Positions 9,928 to 22,426 of a stretch of DNA of 64,000 nt are shown here, one piece after another. Under the pieces are notes generated by a model. It saw only the letters and a list, made by a program, of their open reading frames with translations, made no database searches and was not told where the DNA came from. Numbering within the stretch: the stretch's first letter is position 1; each line of letters begins with the position of its first letter. The position numbers and the translations under genes are program-made. The DNA is from Ignavibacteriales bacterium (GTDB lineage: Bacteria > Bacteroidota > Ignavibacteria > UBA10030). Location: NCBI GenBank assembly GCA_026390575.1, contig JAPLFR010000001.1, positions 248,001-312,000 on the forward strand, written 5' to 3'.

Positions 9928-11364
9928 ATGATAACAAAGTGTATTGATATTCAGGATGAGATTCTGAAACGCGTCGGTGTTATTGCCGACCGTGAGGGTA
10001 TTGCAGCGTACGTTGTTGGCGGCTATGTGCGTGATATCCTGCTTGGCAGGGAAGGTAAAGATACGGACATCGTTGTTATCGGCAGCGGTGTGGAGTTTGC
10101 AAAAATTGTTGCGAAAGATTTTGGCAGAACAAATCTTATTCTCTTTGAAAACTTTGGGACAGCAATGTTGCCGCTGGATGACAGGAAATTGGAATTTGTC
10201 GGTGCACGAAAAGAAAGTTATCGGAAAGATTCCCGGAACCCGCATGTCGAAGCCGGCACGCTGAACGAAGATTTGTCACGGCGTGATTTTACCGTGAATG
10301 CAATGGCCGCAAGTCTCAATGAAAAAACCTTCGGCGAAATTATCGACCCGTTTAATTGTGAAGGTGATCTGCAGGAAAAGATTCTGCGCACACCGCTCGA
10401 CCCGGAAGTTACATTCGACGATGATCCGCTCCGCATTATGCGCGCGATGCGTTTTGCCTCACAGCTTGGATTTACCATTGAGCCGAATGTGCTGAACGCT
10501 GCACAGAAAATGGCTGGGCGGCTGGCGATTGTTTCTCAGGAGCGCATCTCGGATGAATTCTTGAAAATCATGTCAAGTTCCGCTCCGTCCATCGGACTTC
10601 AATTGATGTACGACTCAGGTGTTCTGCAGGTTGTTTTTCCAGAAGTTGCACAGATGGCAGGCGTGGATCAATTAAAAGAGTATCATCACAAAGATGTTTT
10701 CAAACATACGCTGCAGGTTGTGGATAAAGTTGCAGCAGCATCGGATAATCTTTGGCTGCGCATGGCGGCGCTTCTGCACGATATAGGCAAACCGAAAACG
10801 AAAGCATTCAAACCGGAAATTGGCTGGACATTTCATGGACACGAAGATCTCGGCGCACGAATGGCAAAGCGCATCTTCCGCCGGATGCGATTTCCGCTGG
10901 AGAACCTTCCATACATAGAAAAACTAATTCGCCTTCACCTCCGTCCACAGGCATTAGTTGATGATGGCGTGACAGATTCCGCTGTTCGCCGATTGATGTT
11001 TGAAACCGGCAACGATATTGATGACCTTATGGTATTATGTCGGGCTGATATTACTTCAAAGAATCAAAAACTTGTAGAGCACGTAAAACGAAACTACGAG
11101 CTTGTTATCACCAAGATGGTAGAAGTAGAAGAAAAAGATCGTATCAGAAATTGGCAGCCGCCGTTGCGTGGCGAAGAAATAATGTCGGTGTGCGGACTTA
11201 CCGAAGGCCCGATGGTGGGTGTGTTAAAGGACAAAATCACCGATGCCATTCTCGATGGTGCTATTCCGAACGAACACGATGCCGCTTTACAATACCTTCT
11301 TTCAATCAAAAATGAAGTGATGAATCGGCCGCCTATGAAGAAGAGACGTTATCCTGAAAAATGA
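9928..11364 (+). CDS. cca: CCA tRNA nucleotidyltransferase / poly(A) polymerase family with HD domain
   Basis: The 478-aa protein starts with the class II nucleotidyltransferase core GGYVRDILLG (31-40) and the metal-binding DxD pair D45/D47 (KDTDIVV). It continues with RRDFTVNAMA, the neck motif DDPLRIMRAMRFASQLGF and an HD phosphohydrolase-like domain (LLHDIGKPKT, about 282-291). The enzyme adds or repairs CCA at tRNA 3' ends. The first Asp pair is KDTD instead of the usual DxDL/DLDI. tRNAs in this window have no encoded CCA, so a CCA-adding activity is required in this genome. Spacing of 2 nt suggests co-transcription with the dehydrogenase gene. Confidence 0.92.
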   Translation: MITKCIDIQDEILKRVGVIADREGIAAYVVGGYVRDILLGREGKDTDIVVIGSGVEFAKIVAKDFGRTNLILFENFGTAMLPLDDRKLEFVGARKESYRKDSRNPHVEAGTLNEDLSRRDFTVNAMAASLNEKTFGEIIDPFNCEGDLQEKILRTPLDPEVTFDDDPLRIMRAMRFASQLGFTIEPNVLNAAQKMAGRLAIVSQERISDEFLKIMSSSAPSIGLQLMYDSGVLQVVFPEVAQMAGVDQLKEYHHKDVFKHTLQVVDKVAAASDNLWLRMAALLHDIGKPKTKAFKPEIGWTFHGHEDLGARMAKRIFRRMRFPLENLPYIEKLIRLHLRPQALVDDGVTDSAVRRLMFETGNDIDDLMVLCRADITSKNQKLVEHVKRNYELVITKMVEVEEKDRIRNWQPPLRGEEIMSVCGLTEGPMVGVLKDKITDAILDGAIPNEHDAALQYLLSIKNEVMNRPPMKKRRYPEK

Positions 11365-11506: not shown

Positions 11507-12859
11507 ATGAAAAAAATAATGGCTTTAATCGTATTAACAGCTTCACTTTGTGGCGCACAAACGCAATCCGGAATTACGAAGACGCTTACATTAAACGATG
11601 CTATTACCGTTTCGCTCCAGCGCAATTTGAATATACAACAGGCGGCAAACGGTATCGATGCTGCACGAAGTGGAGTCCTGGCTGCATATGGTTCTTACAT
11701 GCCGACTCTGTCCGCATCGTCAAGCTGGTCGCGTAATCAACGCGAGTCACCTTCCGGATTGATATACAATTCGGCGACAGGAACATATCTTGCGGCAGGA
11801 GGATCAGATCTGACGACATCGTACTCTGCCGGACTCAGTTTGAATTATACACTCTTTGACGGGCTTTCGCGGGAATCGAATTTTAGTAAGGCAACATCTG
11901 CAAAAGCGATTGCAGAACAGCAGTTCACAAGAACGAAGCAATCAATCATTTTTCAGGTTCAAGCCAGTTATCTAACAGTCCTGCGTAATGAGCAGCTTGT
12001 AAAAGTTAGCGAAGAAAATCTGAAACGAGACCAAAAGCAGTTGGAACGGATTATGGAATCCAGTCGTGTTGGTGCTCTCTCGATCAGTGATGTGTATCGT
12101 CAACAATCGGCTGTAGCATTTGACGAAGTAAATCTCATCAATGCGCAGAACACGTACGATAAATCGAAGGCGGATTTAGTATCACTTATTGGCCTTGACG
12201 TCATGGAAGAATATGCGATTGCCGATCCGGCGATTTCTCCTGACATCGACTCCACTGAACTTGCAACAACAACCCAATCCCTTGGCGGTTTTGGCGATAT
12301 GCGAAAGCGTGCGCTTGTTTCACGTCCGGACTACCAAAACGCAATTGAAAATATGAAGACTGCCGGTTATAGCGTAACAAAAGCATGGGGCAATTACCTT
12401 CCAAGTGCTCGAGCATTTGCAGGATATGGTCTTTCTTCTTCAGAATTGTCGAGTTTATCGGAAAACAAAAATATTAATTGGGGTATCAGCTTAGGTTGGA
12501 CGTTATTCGACGGTTTCTCCACCAATCAAGGTATTCAGATTGCAAAGGTACAGGAACGCAATGCAGAGTTGTCGCTTTATCAAACGGAACGTGACGTCAG
12601 TGTCGATGTAAAGAAGGCATTACTCGATCTCGAAGCTGCACGGAGACAATACGACGCGAGTGCGAAGAGTGTAACTTCTGCCACGCAGGATCGTAAAGTA
12701 GCAGAAGAGAAGTACAATCTCGGTTCTGGTACAATTCTCGATCTTCAAATAGCAAATGCAAATCTTGTGAACGCGCAAGTGACAAAAATAAATTCAACGT
12801 ACGGTTATATCACTGCAAAACGCAATTTGGAATATGTCATCGGTGAACGTAATTACTAA
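11507..12859 (+). CDS. TolC-family outer-membrane efflux protein
   Basis: The 450-aa product has a signal peptide ([18 protein letters not shown]) and two repeated TolC/OEP halves of coiled-coil helices with the family hallmarks [19 protein letters not shown] near the N-terminus, [10 protein letters not shown] and the matching [16 protein letters not shown] in the second half. It forms the trimeric outer-membrane duct of a tripartite exporter. It is the first gene of the efflux locus, 52 nt before the membrane-fusion protein. A 142-bp AT-rich gap before it presumably carries the promoter; ATTGGAGAAG provides the ribosome-binding site. Confidence 0.92.
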
Positions 12860-12910: not shown

Positions 12911-14176
12911 ATGGCAAATGGTAATGGGAAAAAGAAAAAGAAAAAGATAATCATCTTTTCGATTATCGGAGTGGTGATCATTGTTCTTGGCGTGCTCGTG
13001 TTCCTTGGCAGCAGGCGCGAGACTATCATAACCGTTCAGACGGAAAAAGTTCAGCGGAGAACGATCACGCAGATCGTCTCAGCGACAGGAAAGATACAAC
13101 CGGAAACACAAGTGAAGATTAATGCAGAGGTGAGCGGCGAAATTATCGCATTGCCCGTTCGCGAGGGTCAACGCGTCGCAAAAGGACAATTGCTTGTCCG
13201 CATAAAACCGGATGCATACCAAGCTCAATTAGAAAATGCAGAAGCGTCTTTAGCAATGGCAGATGCCGGCCTTCGCAGAGCCGAGGCAGATTACAACCGT
13301 GCAAAAGAACTTATTGTGAAAAAGCTTATTTCTGATTCTGATATGGACATTGCAAAAGCGAGTTACCTGAGCGCAAAAGCGGGATATGATCAAGCGAATG
13401 CGATCCTAAAACAAAATCGTGAACAGTTTTCAAAGACCACAATTTATTCGCCGATGGCCGGTGTTGTGAGCCAATTGATATCTGAACTTGGGGAGCGCGT
13501 CAGCGGAAGCACGTTTACGCAGGGCACAGAAATTATGACGATAGCCGATCTTACTTCTATGGAAGCACGTGTCGATGTCGGTGAGAATGATGTTGTGATG
13601 GTGCAAAAAGGTGATACGGCGCGGATCGAAGTCGATTCGTATCAAGATCGTAAATTTACCGGCATCGTGACGCAGATTGCTAATACCGCAAAATCGACAG
13701 GCATTGGAACGCAAGACGCGGTGACGAATTTTGAAGTACGTATTCGTATCAATACTCCTGAAGGTATCCAATTCCGGCCGGGGATGTCGATGGCGGCAGA
13801 TATTGAAACGGAAACTCATGCTAACGTTCTCACCGTGCCCATCCAGTCTGTGACAGTACGTGCACCGAAAACGGAAAAGAAAGAAGAACCGAAAGAAGGA
13901 GAAGCGCAATTAGTCGCTGGTAAAAAGAAGGAAGAAGATAAACTTGAAGAAGTGGTGTTTGTTGTGAACAATGGTGCTGTGAAGACGTTACCTGTGAAAC
14001 GCGGCATCAGTAATGATACGTATGTGGAAGTGAAGGCAGATGGCCTTGAGGGGAAAGAAGTGGTGATAGGATCGTTCAAGGCGATCAATCGTGATCTGGA
14101 AGTTGATTCGAAAGTGAAAGTGGACAATAAGTCCTCGAAAAAAACCGGAGCAAGTGCTGACACAGAGAAGAAGTAA
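12911..14176 (+). CDS. Periplasmic adaptor (membrane-fusion) protein of a MacA/HlyD-type exporter
   Basis: The 421-aa protein has a Lys-rich N-terminus and a signal anchor (IIIFSIIGVVIIVLGVLVFLG). It then shows a split biotinyl-lipoyl domain (VSATGKIQPETQVKINAEVSGEI and VVSQLISELGERV) flanking a helical hairpin rich in Ala/Asp/Arg (about residues 95-165), a beta-barrel domain (ARVDVGENDVVMVQKGDTARIEVD) and a membrane-proximal domain. A Lys/Glu-rich insertion (TEKKEEPKEGEAQLVAGKKKEEDKLEE) interrupts the last domain. The N-terminal K-run (KKKKKK) and the C-terminal K-rich tail are also unusual. It links TolC to the inner-membrane permeases encoded downstream. Confidence 0.92.
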   Translation: MANGNGKKKKKKIIIFSIIGVVIIVLGVLVFLGSRRETIITVQTEKVQRRTITQIVSATGKIQPETQVKINAEVSGEIIALPVREGQRVAKGQLLVRIKPDAYQAQLENAEASLAMADAGLRRAEADYNRAKELIVKKLISDSDMDIAKASYLSAKAGYDQANAILKQNREQFSKTTIYSPMAGVVSQLISELGERVSGSTFTQGTEIMTIADLTSMEARVDVGENDVVMVQKGDTARIEVDSYQDRKFTGIVTQIANTAKSTGIGTQDAVTNFEVRIRINTPEGIQFRPGMSMAADIETETHANVLTVPIQSVTVRAPKTEKKEEPKEGEAQLVAGKKKEEDKLEEVVFVVNNGAVKTLPVKRGISNDTYVEVKADGLEGKEVVIGSFKAINRDLEVDSKVKVDNKSSKKTGASADTEKK

Positions 14177-14201
14177 GAAGACAGAGAAAGAAACGATAAG
14201 A

Positions 14202-15179
14202 ATGCAAAAGCTCCTGCGAATATTTGGATTTATTGCTGCGACAGTACTGTTGATACAAACACACTTGCCGGCACAGTCAATTGAAGAAGGTGTTGCGCTT
14301 GTCCAACAAAAGAAATATGCAGAAGCGAAAGCAGTGTTTGAACAAATTCTTGATAAAAACAAGAACGACGCTGAAGCGCATTATCGTCTTGGCTCAGTAT
14401 TACTGAATCGCGGATTTAAAGATCGGGATGTTGATGAAGCAGTTGATCAGCTTGAAGAAGCAGTCGATCTCAATCCCAATAATGCCGACTATCAATTCAG
14501 GTATGGAGCTGCTCTTGGTGAAAAGACTCAAAATGCAGGAATGATTAAACAAGCATTTCTTGCACCCAAAGTAAAAAACGCGTTTAAGCGAGCGGTGGAG
14601 CTCAATCCCAAACTTGTACCGGCGCGTATTGGTTTAGCGCAATATTATCTCATGGCTCCTTCGATTATGGGCGGTGACGAAGATCAGGGTTGGCGCGAGC
14701 TGGATGAAATTGTAAAACAAGATGAACTACAGGGTCGATTGATGAAAGCTCGTTTTTACGAGCGCAATAAGAAACCTGCAGAAGCAGAAAAAGAATGGAA
14801 AACGCTTACGTCATCACAATCAAAGGAATGGAGAGTTTGGAAGGAATATGGATACTTCCATATGCGTACCAAACATCCAGCGGAAGCGGTGAATTGTTTT
14901 CAAAAATACGTTGAGCTTCGACCTGATACAGCAGATTCTTATGAGAGTCTCGCCGAAGCGTTACTTGAGAATGGCAAACCAGATCAGGCGATTGTCCATC
15001 TCCGTAAATCGCTCGAACTAGATAAGAATTTTACCGCTTCTCACTACTATCTTGGCGAAGCGTATCAAGCGAAAGGGCAGAAGAAGGAAGCAAAAGAAAT
15101 GTACCATTTTGTACTTGATGACAAATCCAACGATTCATTTCGCAAAATGGCTGAGAAGAAACTAAAAGAAGTAGAGTAA
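14202..15179 (+). CDS. Exported TPR-repeat protein within the efflux operon
   Basis: Translation from ATG 14202 gives 325 aa with a signal peptide ([22 protein letters not shown]). A longer in-frame start at 14154 would overlap the adaptor gene and lacks the signal at its N-terminus. Several tetratricopeptide repeats follow ([112 protein letters not shown]), predicting an all-helical protein-binding scaffold in the periplasm. It lies between adaptor and ATPase genes, so it probably helps assemble or feed the exporter; this is inference. Confidence 0.85.
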
Positions 15180-15195: not shown

Positions 15196-15921
15196 ATGTC
15201 AACTATTATTCAACTCACAAACATCACAAAATTCTATCAAGTAGGCGAAGAAAAAGTTCATGCCTTAGATGGTGTTTCCATCCAGATTCAGAAAAATGAA
15301 TATGTGGCAATTATGGGCCCGTCTGGTTCCGGCAAATCAACATTGATGAATATTATTGGCTGTCTTGATACGCCTACGTCTGGTTTGTATGAATTGAACA
15401 ACATAAACGTCAGCGATATGAACGACAATCAGCTTGCCAAGATTCGGAATAAAGAAATCGGATTTGTATTCCAGACGTTTAACTTGCTTGCCAGATCGGA
15501 TGTCCTCCACAATGTTGAACTTCCGCTCATTTATGGCGGCATTGGATCGATGGAGCGGAAGAAATTAGCACGCGCGGCAATAGAACGTGTGGGTTTAACG
15601 GATCGAATCCATCACAAACCCAATGAACTTTCCGGCGGACAACGCCAGCGTGTATCCATAGCGCGTGCTCTTGTGACGCAACCGTCTATCTTGCTTGCAG
15701 ATGAACCGACCGGAAACCTTGATACAAAAACCGGCGACGAAATTATGATGCTCTTCGATATACTGCATAAGGAAGGCAATACAATCATTCTCGTGACTCA
15801 TGAAGAGGATATTGCGTTGCATGCACATCGCCGGATTCGTCTCCGTGATGGTAAAATGGAAGTGGATGAACCAATCAAGAATCGCAAAGTCATAACTCGA
15901 CCGGCAACGGTCATGGCATAA
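15196..15921 (+). CDS. ABC transporter ATPase, MacB/LolD class
   Basis: The 241-aa protein has a complete nucleotide-binding domain: Walker [10 protein letters not shown] (41-49), Q-loop FQTFNLL (about 90-96), signature [15 protein letters not shown] (about 144-158), Walker [13 protein letters not shown] (about 165-176) and switch THE (about 200-202). MacB/LolD ATPases power mechanotransmission rather than substrate passage through the membrane. It is the only ATPase gene in the locus and would have to serve all five permeases. The first permease starts 1 nt after the stop codon, implying coupled translation. A 69-bp relic of its 3' end lies at 18582-18650. Confidence 0.95.
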
Positions 15922-15922
15922 A

Positions 15923-17155
15923 ATGAAATTTATATTTGATGAATTCAAAGAAGGAATGGCGATTGCCTTTGCCGCCATCCGTGCCAACAAGATGCGCTCG
16001 GTGTTGACGACACTTGGCATCGTGATCGGCATTGTTTCTGTCACCCTCATGGGAACTGCGATTGAGGGACTGGACCGCGCCTTTAATAAGAGCATTGCGA
16101 CTCTCGGTTCTGATGTGTTGTATATACAGAAATGGTCATGGGCCGATCATGGAGATGATTGGTGGATCATTAAAAATCGGCGAAATGTTCGCATACAGCA
16201 GGCAAAGGATGTTGAAAAGTATTCAGAATATGCAGCAGCGGTGAATCCTGCAACGGGAGCAATGCGGAATGTCAAATATGGACAAAAACTTATAGAGAAC
16301 GTCGTTGTTGTTGGTACTGGCGCTTACTTGCTTGAGACAAGTGGATCCACTATAGCCTTTGGTAGATTTTTTACCCCCATAGAAGCAGATGGAGGACGAC
16401 CGGTGTGCGCTATTGGTTCTGAAGTAGCCGCAAATCTATTTCCTAATGAAAATCCTATTGGGAAAATCATTAAAATCGGTGGGTATGCATACCATGTATT
16501 AGGTGTGTTCGATAAACAAGGGAGTTTTCTTGGATTGCAAAGTCTTGATAATAGGGTCTATGTCCCGATCAATCGGTTCTTTCAAGAATTTATGTCACAT
16601 CGAAGTGATCTTCAGATTATGGTGAAAGCAAAATCGGTGGAAGATTTGGAGAACACGAAAGAAGAAGTCCGTGGTATTTTACGTAGATCGCGCGGTCTTC
16701 AACCGAAGGAGCCGGATGATTTTGCAATCAACCAGCAGGAGACGTTAATCCAGACGTTTAATACAATCGGCGGTGTTATCGCGGCTGTAGGTTTATTTAT
16801 AACAGGAATGTCGCTCTTCGTCGGTGGTATTGGAATCATGAATATCATGTTTGTATCGGTTACAGAGCGCACGAGAGAAATTGGAATCCGCAAAGCAATC
16901 GGAGCGCCCCGGCGAACCATCCTTTTACAGTTCTTGATGGAATCTGCTGCATTATGTCTCATCGGCGGTATCATCGGAATTGTTATCGCCTTTCCGATCA
17001 GTTTGATCATTGATACTTTTCTTCCAACAGCTATGCCCTTAAGTGTAGTATTCATTGCCCTGCTCGTTTCGATTATTGTTGGAGTTGTATCCGGATTTTT
17101 ACCGGCGTACCGTGCTTCGCGTCTCGATCCAGTTGACGCACTGAGATATGAATAG
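15923..17155 (+). CDS. FtsX/MacB-type ABC permease, type A copy 1
   Basis: The 410-aa product has the MacB topology: a first transmembrane helix (about 23-43, VLTTLGIVIGIVSVTLMGTAI), a large periplasmic MacB-PCD domain (about 50-270), then three helices (about 280-305, 330-360, 370-395) in an FtsX domain with the motif TERTREIGIRKAIGAPRRTILLQFL, and a C-terminal PAYRASRLDPVDALRYE. No ATPase domain is fused, unlike E. coli MacB. It pairs with the upstream ATPase and, by inference, with a type B subunit as a heterodimer. Its periplasmic region differs from copy A2 mainly in the first third. Confidence 0.93.
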   Translation: MKFIFDEFKEGMAIAFAAIRANKMRSVLTTLGIVIGIVSVTLMGTAIEGLDRAFNKSIATLGSDVLYIQKWSWADHGDDWWIIKNRRNVRIQQAKDVEKYSEYAAAVNPATGAMRNVKYGQKLIENVVVVGTGAYLLETSGSTIAFGRFFTPIEADGGRPVCAIGSEVAANLFPNENPIGKIIKIGGYAYHVLGVFDKQGSFLGLQSLDNRVYVPINRFFQEFMSHRSDLQIMVKAKSVEDLENTKEEVRGILRRSRGLQPKEPDDFAINQQETLIQTFNTIGGVIAAVGLFITGMSLFVGGIGIMNIMFVSVTERTREIGIRKAIGAPRRTILLQFLMESAALCLIGGIIGIVIAFPISLIIDTFLPTAMPLSVVFIALLVSIIVGVVSGFLPAYRASRLDPVDALRYE

Positions 17156-17190: not shown

Positions 17191-18414
17191 ATGGAATTCT
17201 CTGAAATATTTAAAATGTCTTTGACTGCTATCCGCTCCAACAAACTTCGCTCTGCGTTGACGTTGCTGGGTATTATTGTTGGAGTATTCTCTATTATCGG
17301 CGTCATGACAGCCGTTCAGGTACTGCAGAACAGTATTGAAGATGGTTTAAGCGGTCTTGGAGCCAATACTTTTCAGGTACAGAAGGAGCCGGTTATGGCA
17401 GGTCATACCAAGTGGCTCAAATCATTGAAGTGGAAAGATATACGCTATCCACAAGGATTGATTGTCAAGGAGAAGATGACGCTTGCTCAATCTGTTGCGC
17501 TTGAATCATGGAAAGGCGGACAGACTATTCAATTTGGATCTTTGAAGACAAATCCAAGTGTTGCCGTGGCTGGAGAAGAGCCCGACGGTATGCCCACAAA
17601 TAACTGGACGATCAAAGAAGGACGGAGCCTCAATGATGATGATGTTCGCTACAGCTCCTTTGTTGTAATTCTTGCTCAGGATATTATTAATAAAATCTTT
17701 CCCCATGGCGGTGCTGTAGGAAGTGAGGTTCGTATCGGTGATGATCGCTATCGTGTTATTGGAACATTTGAGCCGAAGGGATCGAGTTTGGGGGGAAATA
17801 GTGATAATTATGTCGTTATACCATTGAGCACTTTCCTCAATACATATGGAAAACTTCGTAGCATACATATTATGATCAAAGCGAAAAATGCAGAAGTGTA
17901 TGAGGATTGTGTTGAGGAAGCACGCATGATTCTTCGGAGTATACGTAACGTAGCACCGGGCGATGAAGATGATTTTACCATCTTTTCTAATGACTCGCTC
18001 ATCTCGACCTTTAATGAATTTACACAGTATGTCAAACTTGGTGTTGGATTCATGAGCTTCATCTCATTGCTTGCCGCCGGTATCGGCATTATGAATATCA
18101 TGCTGGTCTCTGTCACCGAACGCACCAGAGAGATTGGTATTCGGAAGGCGCTTGGTGCTCGAAGAGCAAATATACTTTCGCAGTTTATCACCGAGGCTAT
18201 TGTACTGTGTGAAATCGGCGGCGTTATCGGTGTTGGGCTTGGCATCCTTGGCGGCAATTTGGCTGCCCTTGCTCTTAATTTTCCACCTGTATTTCCTCTT
18301 GATTGGGCGCTAATTGGATTTGCAATCACGACGTTTGTGGGAGTAGTGTTTGGTGTCTATCCAGCCTGGAAAGCTGCAAATCTCGATCCTATCGACTCTT
18401 TAAGATACGAATAA
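17191..18414 (+). CDS. FtsX/MacB-type ABC permease, type B copy 1
   Basis: The 407-aa protein shares the A-type topology but belongs to a distinct subfamily: N-terminus MEFSEIFKMSLTAIRSNKLRSALTLLGIIVG, a periplasmic domain with GLSGLGANTFQVQK, and the C-terminal FtsX domain with TERTREIGIRKALGARRANILSQFI, ending in AANLDPIDSLRYE. The last 312 bp before the final codons (18088-18399) are nearly identical in DNA to 20821-21132 of copy B2, whereas the preceding sequence is clearly diverged. Type A and B are present in each duplicated unit, which supports A-B heterodimers. Confidence 0.93.
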   Translation: MEFSEIFKMSLTAIRSNKLRSALTLLGIIVGVFSIIGVMTAVQVLQNSIEDGLSGLGANTFQVQKEPVMAGHTKWLKSLKWKDIRYPQGLIVKEKMTLAQSVALESWKGGQTIQFGSLKTNPSVAVAGEEPDGMPTNNWTIKEGRSLNDDDVRYSSFVVILAQDIINKIFPHGGAVGSEVRIGDDRYRVIGTFEPKGSSLGGNSDNYVVIPLSTFLNTYGKLRSIHIMIKAKNAEVYEDCVEEARMILRSIRNVAPGDEDDFTIFSNDSLISTFNEFTQYVKLGVGFMSFISLLAAGIGIMNIMLVSVTERTREIGIRKALGARRANILSQFITEAIVLCEIGGVIGVGLGILGGNLAALALNFPPVFPLDWALIGFAITTFVGVVFGVYPAWKAANLDPIDSLRYE

Positions 18415-18581
18415 AGTCGATATGGGAATATTTCCCGTTATTTTAATTGAGATCGATTTTGGGTGATAGGGAAATGCTGATTTACTGCAAACCAGGACAA
18501 CCCAATCTCAGTGAGGTCTTCGTTTTATAACGATCTAACGAATAAGCCACACTGAAATGGAAGTCCATAGATGTTCATAGC

Positions 18582-18650
18582 AAGATGGAAGAGGACGCAC
18601 CGATGAAGAATCGAATTGCCATAACTCGATCAACAAAGGTCATGGTATAA
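18582..18650 (+). pseudogene. Relic of the ABC ATPase 3' end
   Basis: These 69 bases align without gaps to the last 69 bases of the ATPase gene (15853-15921), with about 54 identities counted by eye, and the stop codon TAA is in the same place, one base before the next permease ATG. Nothing further upstream (18415-18581) resembles the ATPase. The relic shows that the duplicated segment started inside the ATPase gene. It has no start codon and no function is expected beyond carrying leader sequence for permease A2. Confidence 0.85.
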
Positions 18651-18651
18651 C

Positions 18652-19884
18652 ATGAAATTTGTATTTGATGAATTCAAAGAAGGGATGGCGATTGCATTTG
18701 CAGCCATCCGCGCTAATAAAATGCGTTCGGTGTTGACAACACTTGGCATTGTCATCGGTATTGTTTCTGTGACGCTTATGGGAACAGCGATTGAAGGGTT
18801 GGATCGCGCCTTCAATAAGAGTATAGCCGCTCTTGGAACGGATGTCTTGTATGTACAAAAGTTCCCGTGGATCATTAACGATGACGATTTTTGGAAACTG
18901 CGAAATAGGAAGGATATTCTGATACAGCACGCAAAAGCTATTGAAAAAAATTCTGAATATGCTAGTGCAGTTAACCCAGTCATAGGAACATTAAAAAATG
19001 TTAAATATGGACAAAAGCTTGTTGAAAACGTCGTTGTTGTCGGCACAGGTTCTGATATGCTTGAGACCAGCGGCGCGACTGTTGCATTTGGCCGTTTCTT
19101 TACACGAGTAGAAGCCGACGGAGGGCGGCCTGTGTGTGCCCTTGGATCTGAAGTTGCTGCCAATCTTTTCCCAAATGAAAATCCGATTGGGAAAATTGTT
19201 AAAATTGGCGGGTATCTATATCACGTATCAGGTGTTTTCGATAAACAAGGAAATTTTCTTGGATCGCAAAGTCTTGATAATAGAGTCTATGTCCCGATCA
19301 ACCGTTTCTTTAAAGAGTTTATGTCGTTTCGTGGCGGTATCCAGATTTGGGTGAAAGCAAAATCTGTGGGTGATTTGGATGAAACAAAAGAAGAAGTTCG
19401 TGGCATTATGCGTAAAACGCGCGGACTCAAACCGAAAGATCGTGATGACTTTGCGATTAACCAGCAAGAAATATTAGTTCAAACGTTTAATCAGATTGGC
19501 GGTGTTATTGCCGCGGTAGGTTTATTTGTTACAGGAATGTCGCTCTTTGTCGGTGGTATAGGAATTATGAATATTATGTTTGTATCGGTTACGGAACGCA
19601 CGAGAGAAATCGGAATCCGTAAAGCAATTGGTGCACCCCGGCGGACTATTCTTCTGCAGTTCTTGATGGAATCTGCAGCGTTATGTCTCATTGGCGGTAT
19701 CATCGGAATTATTATTGCCTTTCCAATAAGTCTGATAATTGATACGTTTCTTCCAACAGCTATGCCCTTGAGTGTGGTAGCCTTTGCTCTGGTTGTTTCT
19801 ATTATTGTTGGAATTGTTTCTGGATTTTTGCCGGCGTATCGGGCATCGCGTCTCGATCCTGTTGATGCATTAAGATATGAATAG
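18652..19884 (+). CDS. FtsX/MacB-type ABC permease, type A copy 2
   Basis: The 410-aa product is the same length as copy A1. It matches A1 almost exactly over the first 45 residues and through the C-terminal membrane domain (GGVIAAVGLF...TREIGIRKAIGAPRR). Differences concentrate at about residues 45-75 (SIAALGTDVLYVQKFPWIINDDDFWKLRN) and in scattered periplasmic positions, the pattern expected if the periplasmic domains are adapting to different partners or cargo. No frameshift or missing motif is visible. Its start sits at the same place relative to the ATPase-tail relic as A1's does to the real ATPase. Confidence 0.93.
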   Translation: MKFVFDEFKEGMAIAFAAIRANKMRSVLTTLGIVIGIVSVTLMGTAIEGLDRAFNKSIAALGTDVLYVQKFPWIINDDDFWKLRNRKDILIQHAKAIEKNSEYASAVNPVIGTLKNVKYGQKLVENVVVVGTGSDMLETSGATVAFGRFFTRVEADGGRPVCALGSEVAANLFPNENPIGKIVKIGGYLYHVSGVFDKQGNFLGSQSLDNRVYVPINRFFKEFMSFRGGIQIWVKAKSVGDLDETKEEVRGIMRKTRGLKPKDRDDFAINQQEILVQTFNQIGGVIAAVGLFVTGMSLFVGGIGIMNIMFVSVTERTREIGIRKAIGAPRRTILLQFLMESAALCLIGGIIGIIIAFPISLIIDTFLPTAMPLSVVAFALVVSIIVGIVSGFLPAYRASRLDPVDALRYE

Positions 19885-19926
19885 GAAAAGCTTTTTCTTT
19901 TAACTGTTTTGCTTTTGGCGTGACTC

Positions 19927-21147
19927 ATGGAATTCTCTGAAATATTTAAAATGTCTTTGACGGCCATCCGCTCCAACAAGCTTCGCTCGTCGTTGACGCT
20001 GCTTGGTATTATTGTCGGAGTATTTTCTATTATTGGTGTTATGACCGCCGTTCAGGTTCTGCAGAACAGTATTGAAGCTGGTTTGAGCGGTCTTGGAGCT
20101 AACACTTTCCAGATTCAAAAGCAGCCGGCAATTGCGAATCGTACTCAATATTTGAAATCGCTGAAATGGAAAGACTTTACATACGAACAGGCAAAAATAG
20201 CCAAGGAGCGGATTACACTTGCTCGATATGTCGGAATCGGAACATATCAGAGTTCAGAAACCATCCAATTTGGATCACTTAAAACTAATCCGAATGTTGA
20301 CGTTGGCGGAGAGGAACCGGAAGGGATTTATACCAACAACTGGACTATACGTGATGGAAGAAATTTCACGGATGATGACGTGAAATATTCCTCCATGGTT
20401 GTTATACTCATGGATGATGTTGTGAAAAAACTATTCCCTCATGGTGGTGCAGTTGGCAATATTGTCAGAGTAGGTGCTCAGCGTTATATGGTTATCGGAA
20501 CGTTTGAACCGAAAGGTTCATCAATAGGTGGAAATGATAACAAAGTGATTTTACCGCTCAGCACATTTCTTCAACAATATGGCAAGATTCGCAGTATCTA
20601 TCTCAAGGTCCAAGCGAAAAATGCAGAAATGTATGATGCTTGCATTGAGGAGACGCGGATGATTATCCGTACGATACGAAAAGTTGATCCCGGGGAAGAA
20701 GATAATTTTTATATTGCTTCGAACGACTCGCTTATTTCTACTTTTAATGAATTTACTCTCTACGTCAAACTCGGAGTTGGTTTTATGAGTTTCATCTCGC
20801 TGATAGCTGCCGGGATCGGTATTATGAATATCATGCTGGTCTCTGTCACCGAACGCACCAGAGAGATTGGTATTCGGAAGGCGCTTGGTGCTCGAAGAGC
20901 AAATATACTTTCGCAGTTTATCACCGAGGCTATTGTACTGTGTGAAATTGGCGGCGTTATCGGTGTTGGGCTTGGCATCCTTGGCGGCAATTTAGCTGCC
21001 CTTGCTCTTAATTTTTCACCTGTATTTCCACTTGATTGGGCGCTAATTGGATTTGCAATCACGACGTTTGTGGGAGTAGTGTTTGGTGTCTATCCAGCCT
21101 GGAAAGCTGCAAATCTCGATCCTATCGACTCTCTTCGATATGAGTAA
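19927..21147 (+). CDS. FtsX/MacB-type ABC permease, type B copy 2
   Basis: The 406-aa type B permease has an intact first helix, MacB-PCD periplasmic domain and FtsX domain. The periplasmic part resembles copy B3 more than B1 (both have QKQPAIA and KWKDxTYEQAKI), while the 3' 312 bp are almost identical to B1 in DNA. The gene is therefore a mosaic, most simply explained by gene conversion from or to B1. The gap to A2 is 42 bp, AT-rich and similar to the A1-B1 gap. Confidence 0.93.
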   Translation: MEFSEIFKMSLTAIRSNKLRSSLTLLGIIVGVFSIIGVMTAVQVLQNSIEAGLSGLGANTFQIQKQPAIANRTQYLKSLKWKDFTYEQAKIAKERITLARYVGIGTYQSSETIQFGSLKTNPNVDVGGEEPEGIYTNNWTIRDGRNFTDDDVKYSSMVVILMDDVVKKLFPHGGAVGNIVRVGAQRYMVIGTFEPKGSSIGGNDNKVILPLSTFLQQYGKIRSIYLKVQAKNAEMYDACIEETRMIIRTIRKVDPGEEDNFYIASNDSLISTFNEFTLYVKLGVGFMSFISLIAAGIGIMNIMLVSVTERTREIGIRKALGARRANILSQFITEAIVLCEIGGVIGVGLGILGGNLAALALNFSPVFPLDWALIGFAITTFVGVVFGVYPAWKAANLDPIDSLRYE

Positions 21148-21205
21148 TTAGAGAAGGCCGAGGGTTAGAGGGATCGGCATTTTTGATTCCCCCAGAAGAG
21201 CTTCT

Positions 21206-22426
21206 ATGCAATTTTCTGAAATAATAAAAATGGCTTTAACGGCCATCCGCTCCAACAAACTTCGCTCAGCGTTAACGTTGCTGGGTATTATTGTCGGAGT
21301 TTTTTCTATAATCGGTGTCATGACCGCAGTTCAGGTACTTCAGAACAGTATTGAAGTTGGTTTGAGCGGTCTTGGCACCAATACCTTTCAGATTCAGAAG
21401 CAGCCAGCTATCGCGACTCGCACACAATGGTTGAAATCACTGAAATGGAAAGATATTACATACGAACAGGCAAAAATTGTTAAAGAACGGGTAACACTTG
21501 CTCAGTATGTTGGTATCGGAGTATTTCAGGATGAACAGACCGTCCAGTTTGGGTCACTGAAAACCAATCCGGATGTTGGAGTCGGTGGTGAGGAGCCGGA
21601 AGGAATGCGGACGAACAACTGGACGATTAAAGATGGGAGAAATATCACGGATGATGATGTGAAATATGCCTCATACGTTATCATTCTTATGTCGGATGTT
21701 GAGAACAAACTGTTTCCGCATGGCGGAGCAGTCGGAAGTATTGTTAAAATGGGTGCGCACCGTTATACTGTTATTGGAACGTTTGAATCGAAAGGATCTA
21801 CAATAGCGGAGTCTGAAAACAAGGTAGTGATACCGCTCAGTACATTCCTTAATCAATACGGCAAGATACGTAGCGTCTATATTAAGGTGAAAGCAAAAAG
21901 TCCGGAAATGTATAATGATTGTGTCGAGGAAACACAAATGATTCTTCGCACGATACGAAAAGTTGCTCCCGGTGATGAAGATAATTTTTCTCTTTCCTCG
22001 AATGATTCGCTCATCGCGACCTTTAATGAATTTACTCTTTACGTCAAACTTGGCGTTGGATTCATGAGCTTCATTGCACTGATTGCAGCGGGGGTCGGCG
22101 TAATGAATATTATGCTTGTTTCCGTTACAGAACGTACTAAAGAAATTGGAATTCGAAAAGCGCTAGGTGCTCGTAGGTCAAATATCTTATCACAGTTTGT
22201 CACCGAAGCTATTGTCCTGTGTCAAATCGGTGGCATTGTCGGCGTCGGGCTTGGCATCCTTGGCGGCAACTTAACTGCGCTTGCATTGAATTTCCCGCCG
22301 GTCTTTCCGCTTGATTGGGCGCTGATTGGATTTGCGATTACGACCTTTGTTGGAGTAGTGTTTGGTGTCTACCCTGCCTGGAAAGCTGCAAATCTTGATC
22401 CGATCGATTCTCTTCGATATGAATAA
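21206..22426 (+). CDS. FtsX/MacB-type ABC permease, type B copy 3
   Basis: The 406-aa permease completes the array. It starts MQFSEIIKMALTAIRSNKLRSALT and ends in the shared AANLDPIDSLRYE. Synonymous differences from B1 and B2 run along its whole length, including the 3' end, so it has not taken part in the recent conversion. It carries small changes in the FtsX motif (TERTKEIGIRKALGARRSNIL). No type A gene accompanies it. It is the last gene of the locus; the next gene has its own ribosome-binding site and a signal peptide. Confidence 0.93.
   Translation: MQFSEIIKMALTAIRSNKLRSALTLLGIIVGVFSIIGVMTAVQVLQNSIEVGLSGLGTNTFQIQKQPAIATRTQWLKSLKWKDITYEQAKIVKERVTLAQYVGIGVFQDEQTVQFGSLKTNPDVGVGGEEPEGMRTNNWTIKDGRNITDDDVKYASYVIILMSDVENKLFPHGGAVGSIVKMGAHRYTVIGTFESKGSTIAESENKVVIPLSTFLNQYGKIRSVYIKVKAKSPEMYNDCVEETQMILRTIRKVAPGDEDNFSLSSNDSLIATFNEFTLYVKLGVGFMSFIALIAAGVGVMNIMLVSVTERTKEIGIRKALGARRSNILSQFVTEAIVLCQIGGIVGVGLGILGGNLTALALNFPPVFPLDWALIGFAITTFVGVVFGVYPAWKAANLDPIDSLRYE

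Follow-up and report, generated by a model that had tools for sequence, protein, structure and literature searches.

Evidence for recent gene conversion of the C-terminal FtsX domain between two old MacB-like permease paralogs in an Ignavibacteriales genome

How have two permease genes of one tandem cluster come to be almost identical over their 3' parts and strongly diverged just upstream? The window analyzed here, a stretch of 64,000 nucleotides from an Ignavibacteriales genome, carries on its plus strand a MacAB-TolC-like cluster with five permease genes (A1, B1, A2, B2 and B3) and one intact ATPase gene, and the two genes in question are B1 and B2. The features of the cluster are as follows, in positions of the window.

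11507-12859, plus strand: TolC-like outer membrane channel (PF02321, 203.7 bits)
12911-14176, plus strand: periplasmic adaptor, MacA/RND_mfp-like (TIGR01730, 171 bits, above cut-off)
14154-15179, plus strand: TPR protein
15196-15921, plus strand: ATPase, the sole intact one in the cluster (Pfam ABC_tran; the best NCBIfam matches are the MacB and LolD families, below their cut-offs)
15923-17155, plus strand: permease A1, which may form a heterodimer with B (Pfam MacB_PCD and FtsX)
17191-18414, plus strand: permease B1, the more likely donor (MacB_PCD, PF12704, and FtsX, PF02687; B1-type orthologues in the congeneric genomes G001-G005 by the middle-segment tree)
18088-18399, plus strand: tract within B1 (codons 300-403; 4 of 312 bases differ from B2)
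18400-18572, plus strand: end of the B1 coding sequence with the 3' flank proper to B1, beyond the tract (5 of the 12 last coding bases differ from B2)
18582-18650, plus strand: fragment left from an ATPase gene's 3' end, directly ahead of A2 (69 bases, 78% identical to 15853-15921)
18652-19884, plus strand: permease A2, diverged duplicate of A1
19927-21147, plus strand: permease B2, with the architecture of B1 by homology, the more likely recipient (middle segment grouped with the B2-type gene of G004, support 100)
20821-21132, plus strand: tract within B2 (C segment grouped with B1, middle segment with the B2-type gene of G004)
21133-21205, plus strand: end of the B2 coding sequence and the spacer to B3, beyond the tract (spacer unlike that of B1)
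21206-22426, plus strand: permease B3, outside the recent conversion and used as internal control (54-55 differences from B1 and B2 in the tract, pS 0.54)

The permeases belong to the MacB-like (type VII) ABC group, as A1 and B1 both have the MacB_PCD and FtsX domains of Pfam, and residues 3-406 of B1 match the MacB structures in the PDB. The E. coli MacB equivalog profile reaches 203 bits against a cut-off of 966, and the ATPase is encoded here by a separate, unfused gene; the permeases are MacB-like and not MacB itself. The ATPase remnant ahead of A2 suggests that the A2-B2 block probably descends from a duplicated ATPase-A-B unit that subsequently lost its ATPase. Between A1 and A2, pS is 0.44 in the C-terminal domain versus up to 0.71 in the periplasmic part.

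The edges of the B1/B2 tract were set by a codon alignment of the two genes, in which the last upstream difference falls at base 897, four differences lie within the tract (1026, 1071, 1093 and 1107), and differences resume at base 1210. An earlier sequence-only reading had proposed a match between 18088-18399 and 20821-21132 with about four differences in 312 bp, and the count proved exact, with three silent changes and one missense change (Pro/Ser at residue 365). Between B1 and B2, pS is 0.036 in the tract versus 0.77 over bases 181-540 and 0.69 over bases 541-897, and in sliding windows along B1, B2 and B3 synonymous divergence is not even, the drop to 0.036 being seen only in the B1-B2 tract. 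The many synonymous differences that the same reading placed just upstream are therefore present, but divergence is not uniform up to the start of the genes, as the first 180 bp, coding for the N-terminus, show lower divergence too (B1-B2 pS 0.37; 0.37-0.42 in all three pairs). B3, described as different throughout, has 54 differences from B1 and 55 from B2 over the same 312 bases, mostly silent (pS 0.54 for either pair). By alignment to MacB structures, together with a review of this family (PMC5985334), the tract starts at the cytoplasmic end of TM2 and continues through the major coupling helix, TM3 and TM4 into the C-terminal minor coupling helix, most of which it includes, in agreement with its earlier description as the ATPase-contact and membrane part.

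A GENECONV-type permutation test gave p<1e-4 on all variable sites and again on synonymous sites alone, with best segments at 898-1206 and 907-1204, respectively, and the binomial probability of four or fewer differences at the B1-B3 rate (54) is about 1e-20. A search of the whole assembly with the tract returned five places: B1 and B2 themselves, nearly identical, then B3 at 83%, and finally A1 and A2, which match over short lengths. The B pairs of G001-G004, with pS of 0.43-0.77 over the corresponding region, showed no comparable recent tract, and neither did A1-A2 or ten other tandem permease pairs.

The age of the paralogs was assessed with segment phylogenies that include five congeneric genomes (G001-G005, with one or two B genes apiece; the present genome is G000), several of which come from fragmented assemblies whose scaffold gaps fall within these permease genes. 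In the tree of the middle segment (alignment bases 181-897, the periplasmic domain), the B1 group has members in all six genomes, the B2 group consists of B2 of the window and a gene of G004, and the B3 group includes genes of the window, G001, G002 and G003. Since these orthologous groups extend across genomes, the duplications are older than most of the genus, and B1 and B2 are old paralogs that separated before its radiation. The C segment alone unites B1 and B2 of the window. The approximately unbiased (AU) test rejected trees of the middle segment in which B1 and B2 are forced to pair (7e-9) as well as trees of the C segment in which the B1-type genes are forced to be monophyletic (9e-5), and these discordant segment trees show that the duplication is older than the identity within the tract. 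Orthologues differ at pS of about 0.5 in the tract region.

With respect to timing, rpoB alone served as the species yardstick, and its pS between this genome and the nearest relative, G001, is 0.41. Compared with this value, the pS of 0.036 in the tract indicates that the exchange occurred well after the split of G000 from G001, the nearest sequenced species, at roughly a tenth of the depth of that split, although the error is wide as only about three silent changes are involved. The claim of recent conversion made in the sequence-only reading is thus borne out by the sliding windows, the permutation test, the discordant segment trees with AU tests in both directions, and the separate flanks considered below. 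We regard it as very probable that B1 and B2 represent a clear case of a known process, a recent non-crossover gene conversion of the C-terminal FtsX domain between old paralogs.

Older exchanges may also have shaped these genes. When B2 is excluded, the ratio of paralogue to orthologue pS in G000, G001 and G003 is 0.99 in the C domain (bootstrap 0.92-1.08) versus 2.2 in the periplasmic middle (bootstrap 1.9-2.6). At third-position sites diagnostic for B1 versus B3, the Ba gene of G001 supports orthology by 87:15 in the middle segment versus 16:16 in the C domain (Fisher p 1.6e-4), with similar patterns in Ba of G003 and in Bb of G001 and G003; at B1-versus-B2 diagnostic sites, the orthologue signal is gone in the first 120 bases as well. 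From the loss of this signal in both regions, both membrane ends, beyond the 312-base tract, seem to have been exchanged earlier among paralogs. When whole topologies were compared without B2 to test for such earlier exchange, the result was borderline (AU 0.073 for the B1-type and 0.14 for the B3-type). It is likely, but not proven, that the FtsX domain has been exchanged recurrently in the genus, erasing B1/B3 orthology in three genomes, and the periplasmic domain alone is indicated to retain paralog identity.

Recombination between species at the locus can add to the discordance between segments. G003 and G000 differ at 0.66 in rpoB, but at only 0.19-0.36 in the ATPase gene, in A1 and, within B1 and B3, in the first half of the periplasmic segment. 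The locus is a mosaic between species in other respects too, as G002 (L109, L108) and G003 (L110) are close at the counterpart of 9928-11364 (pS 0.17) and in TolC (0.32), and G003 is close to G000 and G001 from the TPR/ATPase genes through the permeases. The TPR gene at 14154-15179 is 59% identical to its G001 counterpart (pS 0.65, pN 0.28) though rpoB pS is 0.41, and the TPR genes of G001 and G003 are close to each other (0.21); the pattern suggests gene replacement or transfer. In G002, the B3-type permease (L108:741-796) has an A-type tail, and the spacer after it is of the A-B type, which suggests a deletion through recombination at conserved 3' ends.

It was further proposed in the sequence-only reading that conversion keeps the ATPase-contact and membrane part uniform while the periplasmic domains diverge. 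This part of the proposal was not upheld by a comparison with ten further pairs of similar permeases in tandem, each at least 60% identical in DNA, which are equally uniform at their ends without recent conversion. In these pairs pS is high in every segment (0.45-0.86), whereas pN is 0.04-0.18 at the ends versus 0.17-0.29 in the middle; uniform ends combined with high silent divergence imply that purifying selection alone suffices. An expanded array without recent conversion was also observed in a Bacteroidetes MAG (L027), with six such permeases in one locus. A stronger version, added to conversion rather than opposed to it, is that homogenization is adaptive and was selected so that several periplasmic heads fit one shared ATPase and A partner. 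The presence of five permeases per one intact ATPase, the coincidence of the tract with the coupling domain, and the erased FtsX-domain orthology in three genomes speak for this possibility, but the equally uniform ends of the comparable pairs speak against it, and conversion would be expected most often where similarity remains, so that the placement of the tract is possibly passive. We consider adaptive homogenization rather unlikely; conversion may simply occur where enough similarity persists. Similarly doubtful is the broader picture in which the permeases of this genus would consist of two modules, the heads being stable in paralog identity and even moving from one species to another, and the FtsX part being repeatedly homogenized or reshuffled under selection for compatibility with one ATPase.

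The near-identity itself could have other sources. An assembly or polishing artefact, in which the 3' part of one copy collapsed onto the other, is conceivable in a 16-contig assembly, and congeneric assemblies break or have gaps in the same genes, so these repeats do trouble assemblers. However, the tract itself holds four differences between the copies, each copy has its own sequence again in the last 12 coding bases and in the flank, the contig that carries the block is 467 kb long with the block well away from its ends, and the lost copy would have been about 17% different, which is too much for ordinary polishing; we regard an artefact as improbable.

Another account is that B2 is a hybrid produced by unequal crossing over or recent re-duplication, its 3' end having arrived together with the flank. 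The locus does rearrange: in G002 and G003 the spacer types occur in other combinations, and the ATPase remnant precedes A2. Such events would be expected to bring the 3' flank of the donor, but the 3' flanks of B1 and B2 are unrelated and the last coding bases of B2 are its own, with five differences from B1 among the last 12. By eye, B1 and the B1-type gene of G004 have similar flanks, and the spacer between B2 and B3 looks like the one between Ba and Bb in G003. A single crossover would move the 3' flank, and the separate flanks thus argue for a two-ended exchange, that is, conversion; an origin of B2 by a single crossover or re-duplication is ruled out by these flanks. The hybrid account would need two exchange points, which amounts to conversion, and it is very improbable. 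Purifying selection that includes synonymous sites and holds the C-terminal domain identical without any exchange would accord with the strong protein conservation of this domain in all pairs, but silent-site constraint as the cause of the identity is refuted by B3, which differs in the same array at 54-55 of 312 sites, mostly silent, and by the orthologues at pS of about 0.5, leaving this explanation with almost no probability.

Going beyond the tract, its recency, the old paralogy and the separate flanks, which are established, we infer a route and a direction for the conversion between B1 and B2. Approximately 312 bp over the C-terminal FtsX domain would have been copied without crossover, more likely from B1 to B2. 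RecA-dependent repair recombination is a general route for such exchange, and here it presumably acted between direct repeats 2.7 kb apart. Copying would have ended upstream inside the TM2 codons and downstream just before the 3' end of homology. Regarding non-reciprocity, both loci retain their own flanks, and the earlier sequence of the recipient was presumably lost. In trees without B1, the best place for the C segment of B2 is beside the B1-type genes of G001 and G003, which costs 0.4 lnL relative to the free tree, as against 3.7 for a placement with the B2-type and 4.4 for one with B3, differences that are not significant; these placements point weakly to B1 as the donor.

The locus provides a clean natural example of conversion confined to one domain between functionally diverged transporter paralogs, with B3 as an internal control and orthologues that date the event. 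Whole-gene permease trees from such arrays mix two histories, and the case allows a test of whether MacB-like coupling domains can stand in for one another in permeases served by a common ATPase. A literature search found no paper on gene conversion in MacB-like permeases. The cluster resembles MacAB-TolC and other type VII systems (PMC5985334; PDB 5lil, 5nik) in the MacB periplasmic and FtsX domains and in the adjacent adaptor and TolC genes, but differs from them in its separate ATPase gene and in having five permease genes per one intact ATPase. Conversion confined to a domain has been described for the release-factor genes RF1 and RF2 in Bacteroidia and Chloroflexi, where, as here, functionally diverged bacterial paralogs exchange the domain of a shared task while their specificity domains stay apart (PMC4530459); those genes are ancient and universal and the events old, whereas the present event is recent and concerns the FtsX part of ABC permeases in a tandem array. 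Gene conversion between tufA and tufB of Salmonella likewise proceeds by one-way transfer of contiguous tracts between two copies of a gene on the same chromosome (PMC5485169), but the tuf genes are near-identical over their full length, while here only the C-terminal domain is affected and divergence in the middle exceeds 30%. Long-lasting concerted evolution has been catalogued for prokaryotic gene pairs in which paralogs are as similar as orthologues, or more so, at silent sites (PMC6053082); those pairs are homogenized over their full length, and ABC transporters and permeases are unmentioned in that text, whereas B1 and B2 share this likeness only within the FtsX domain.
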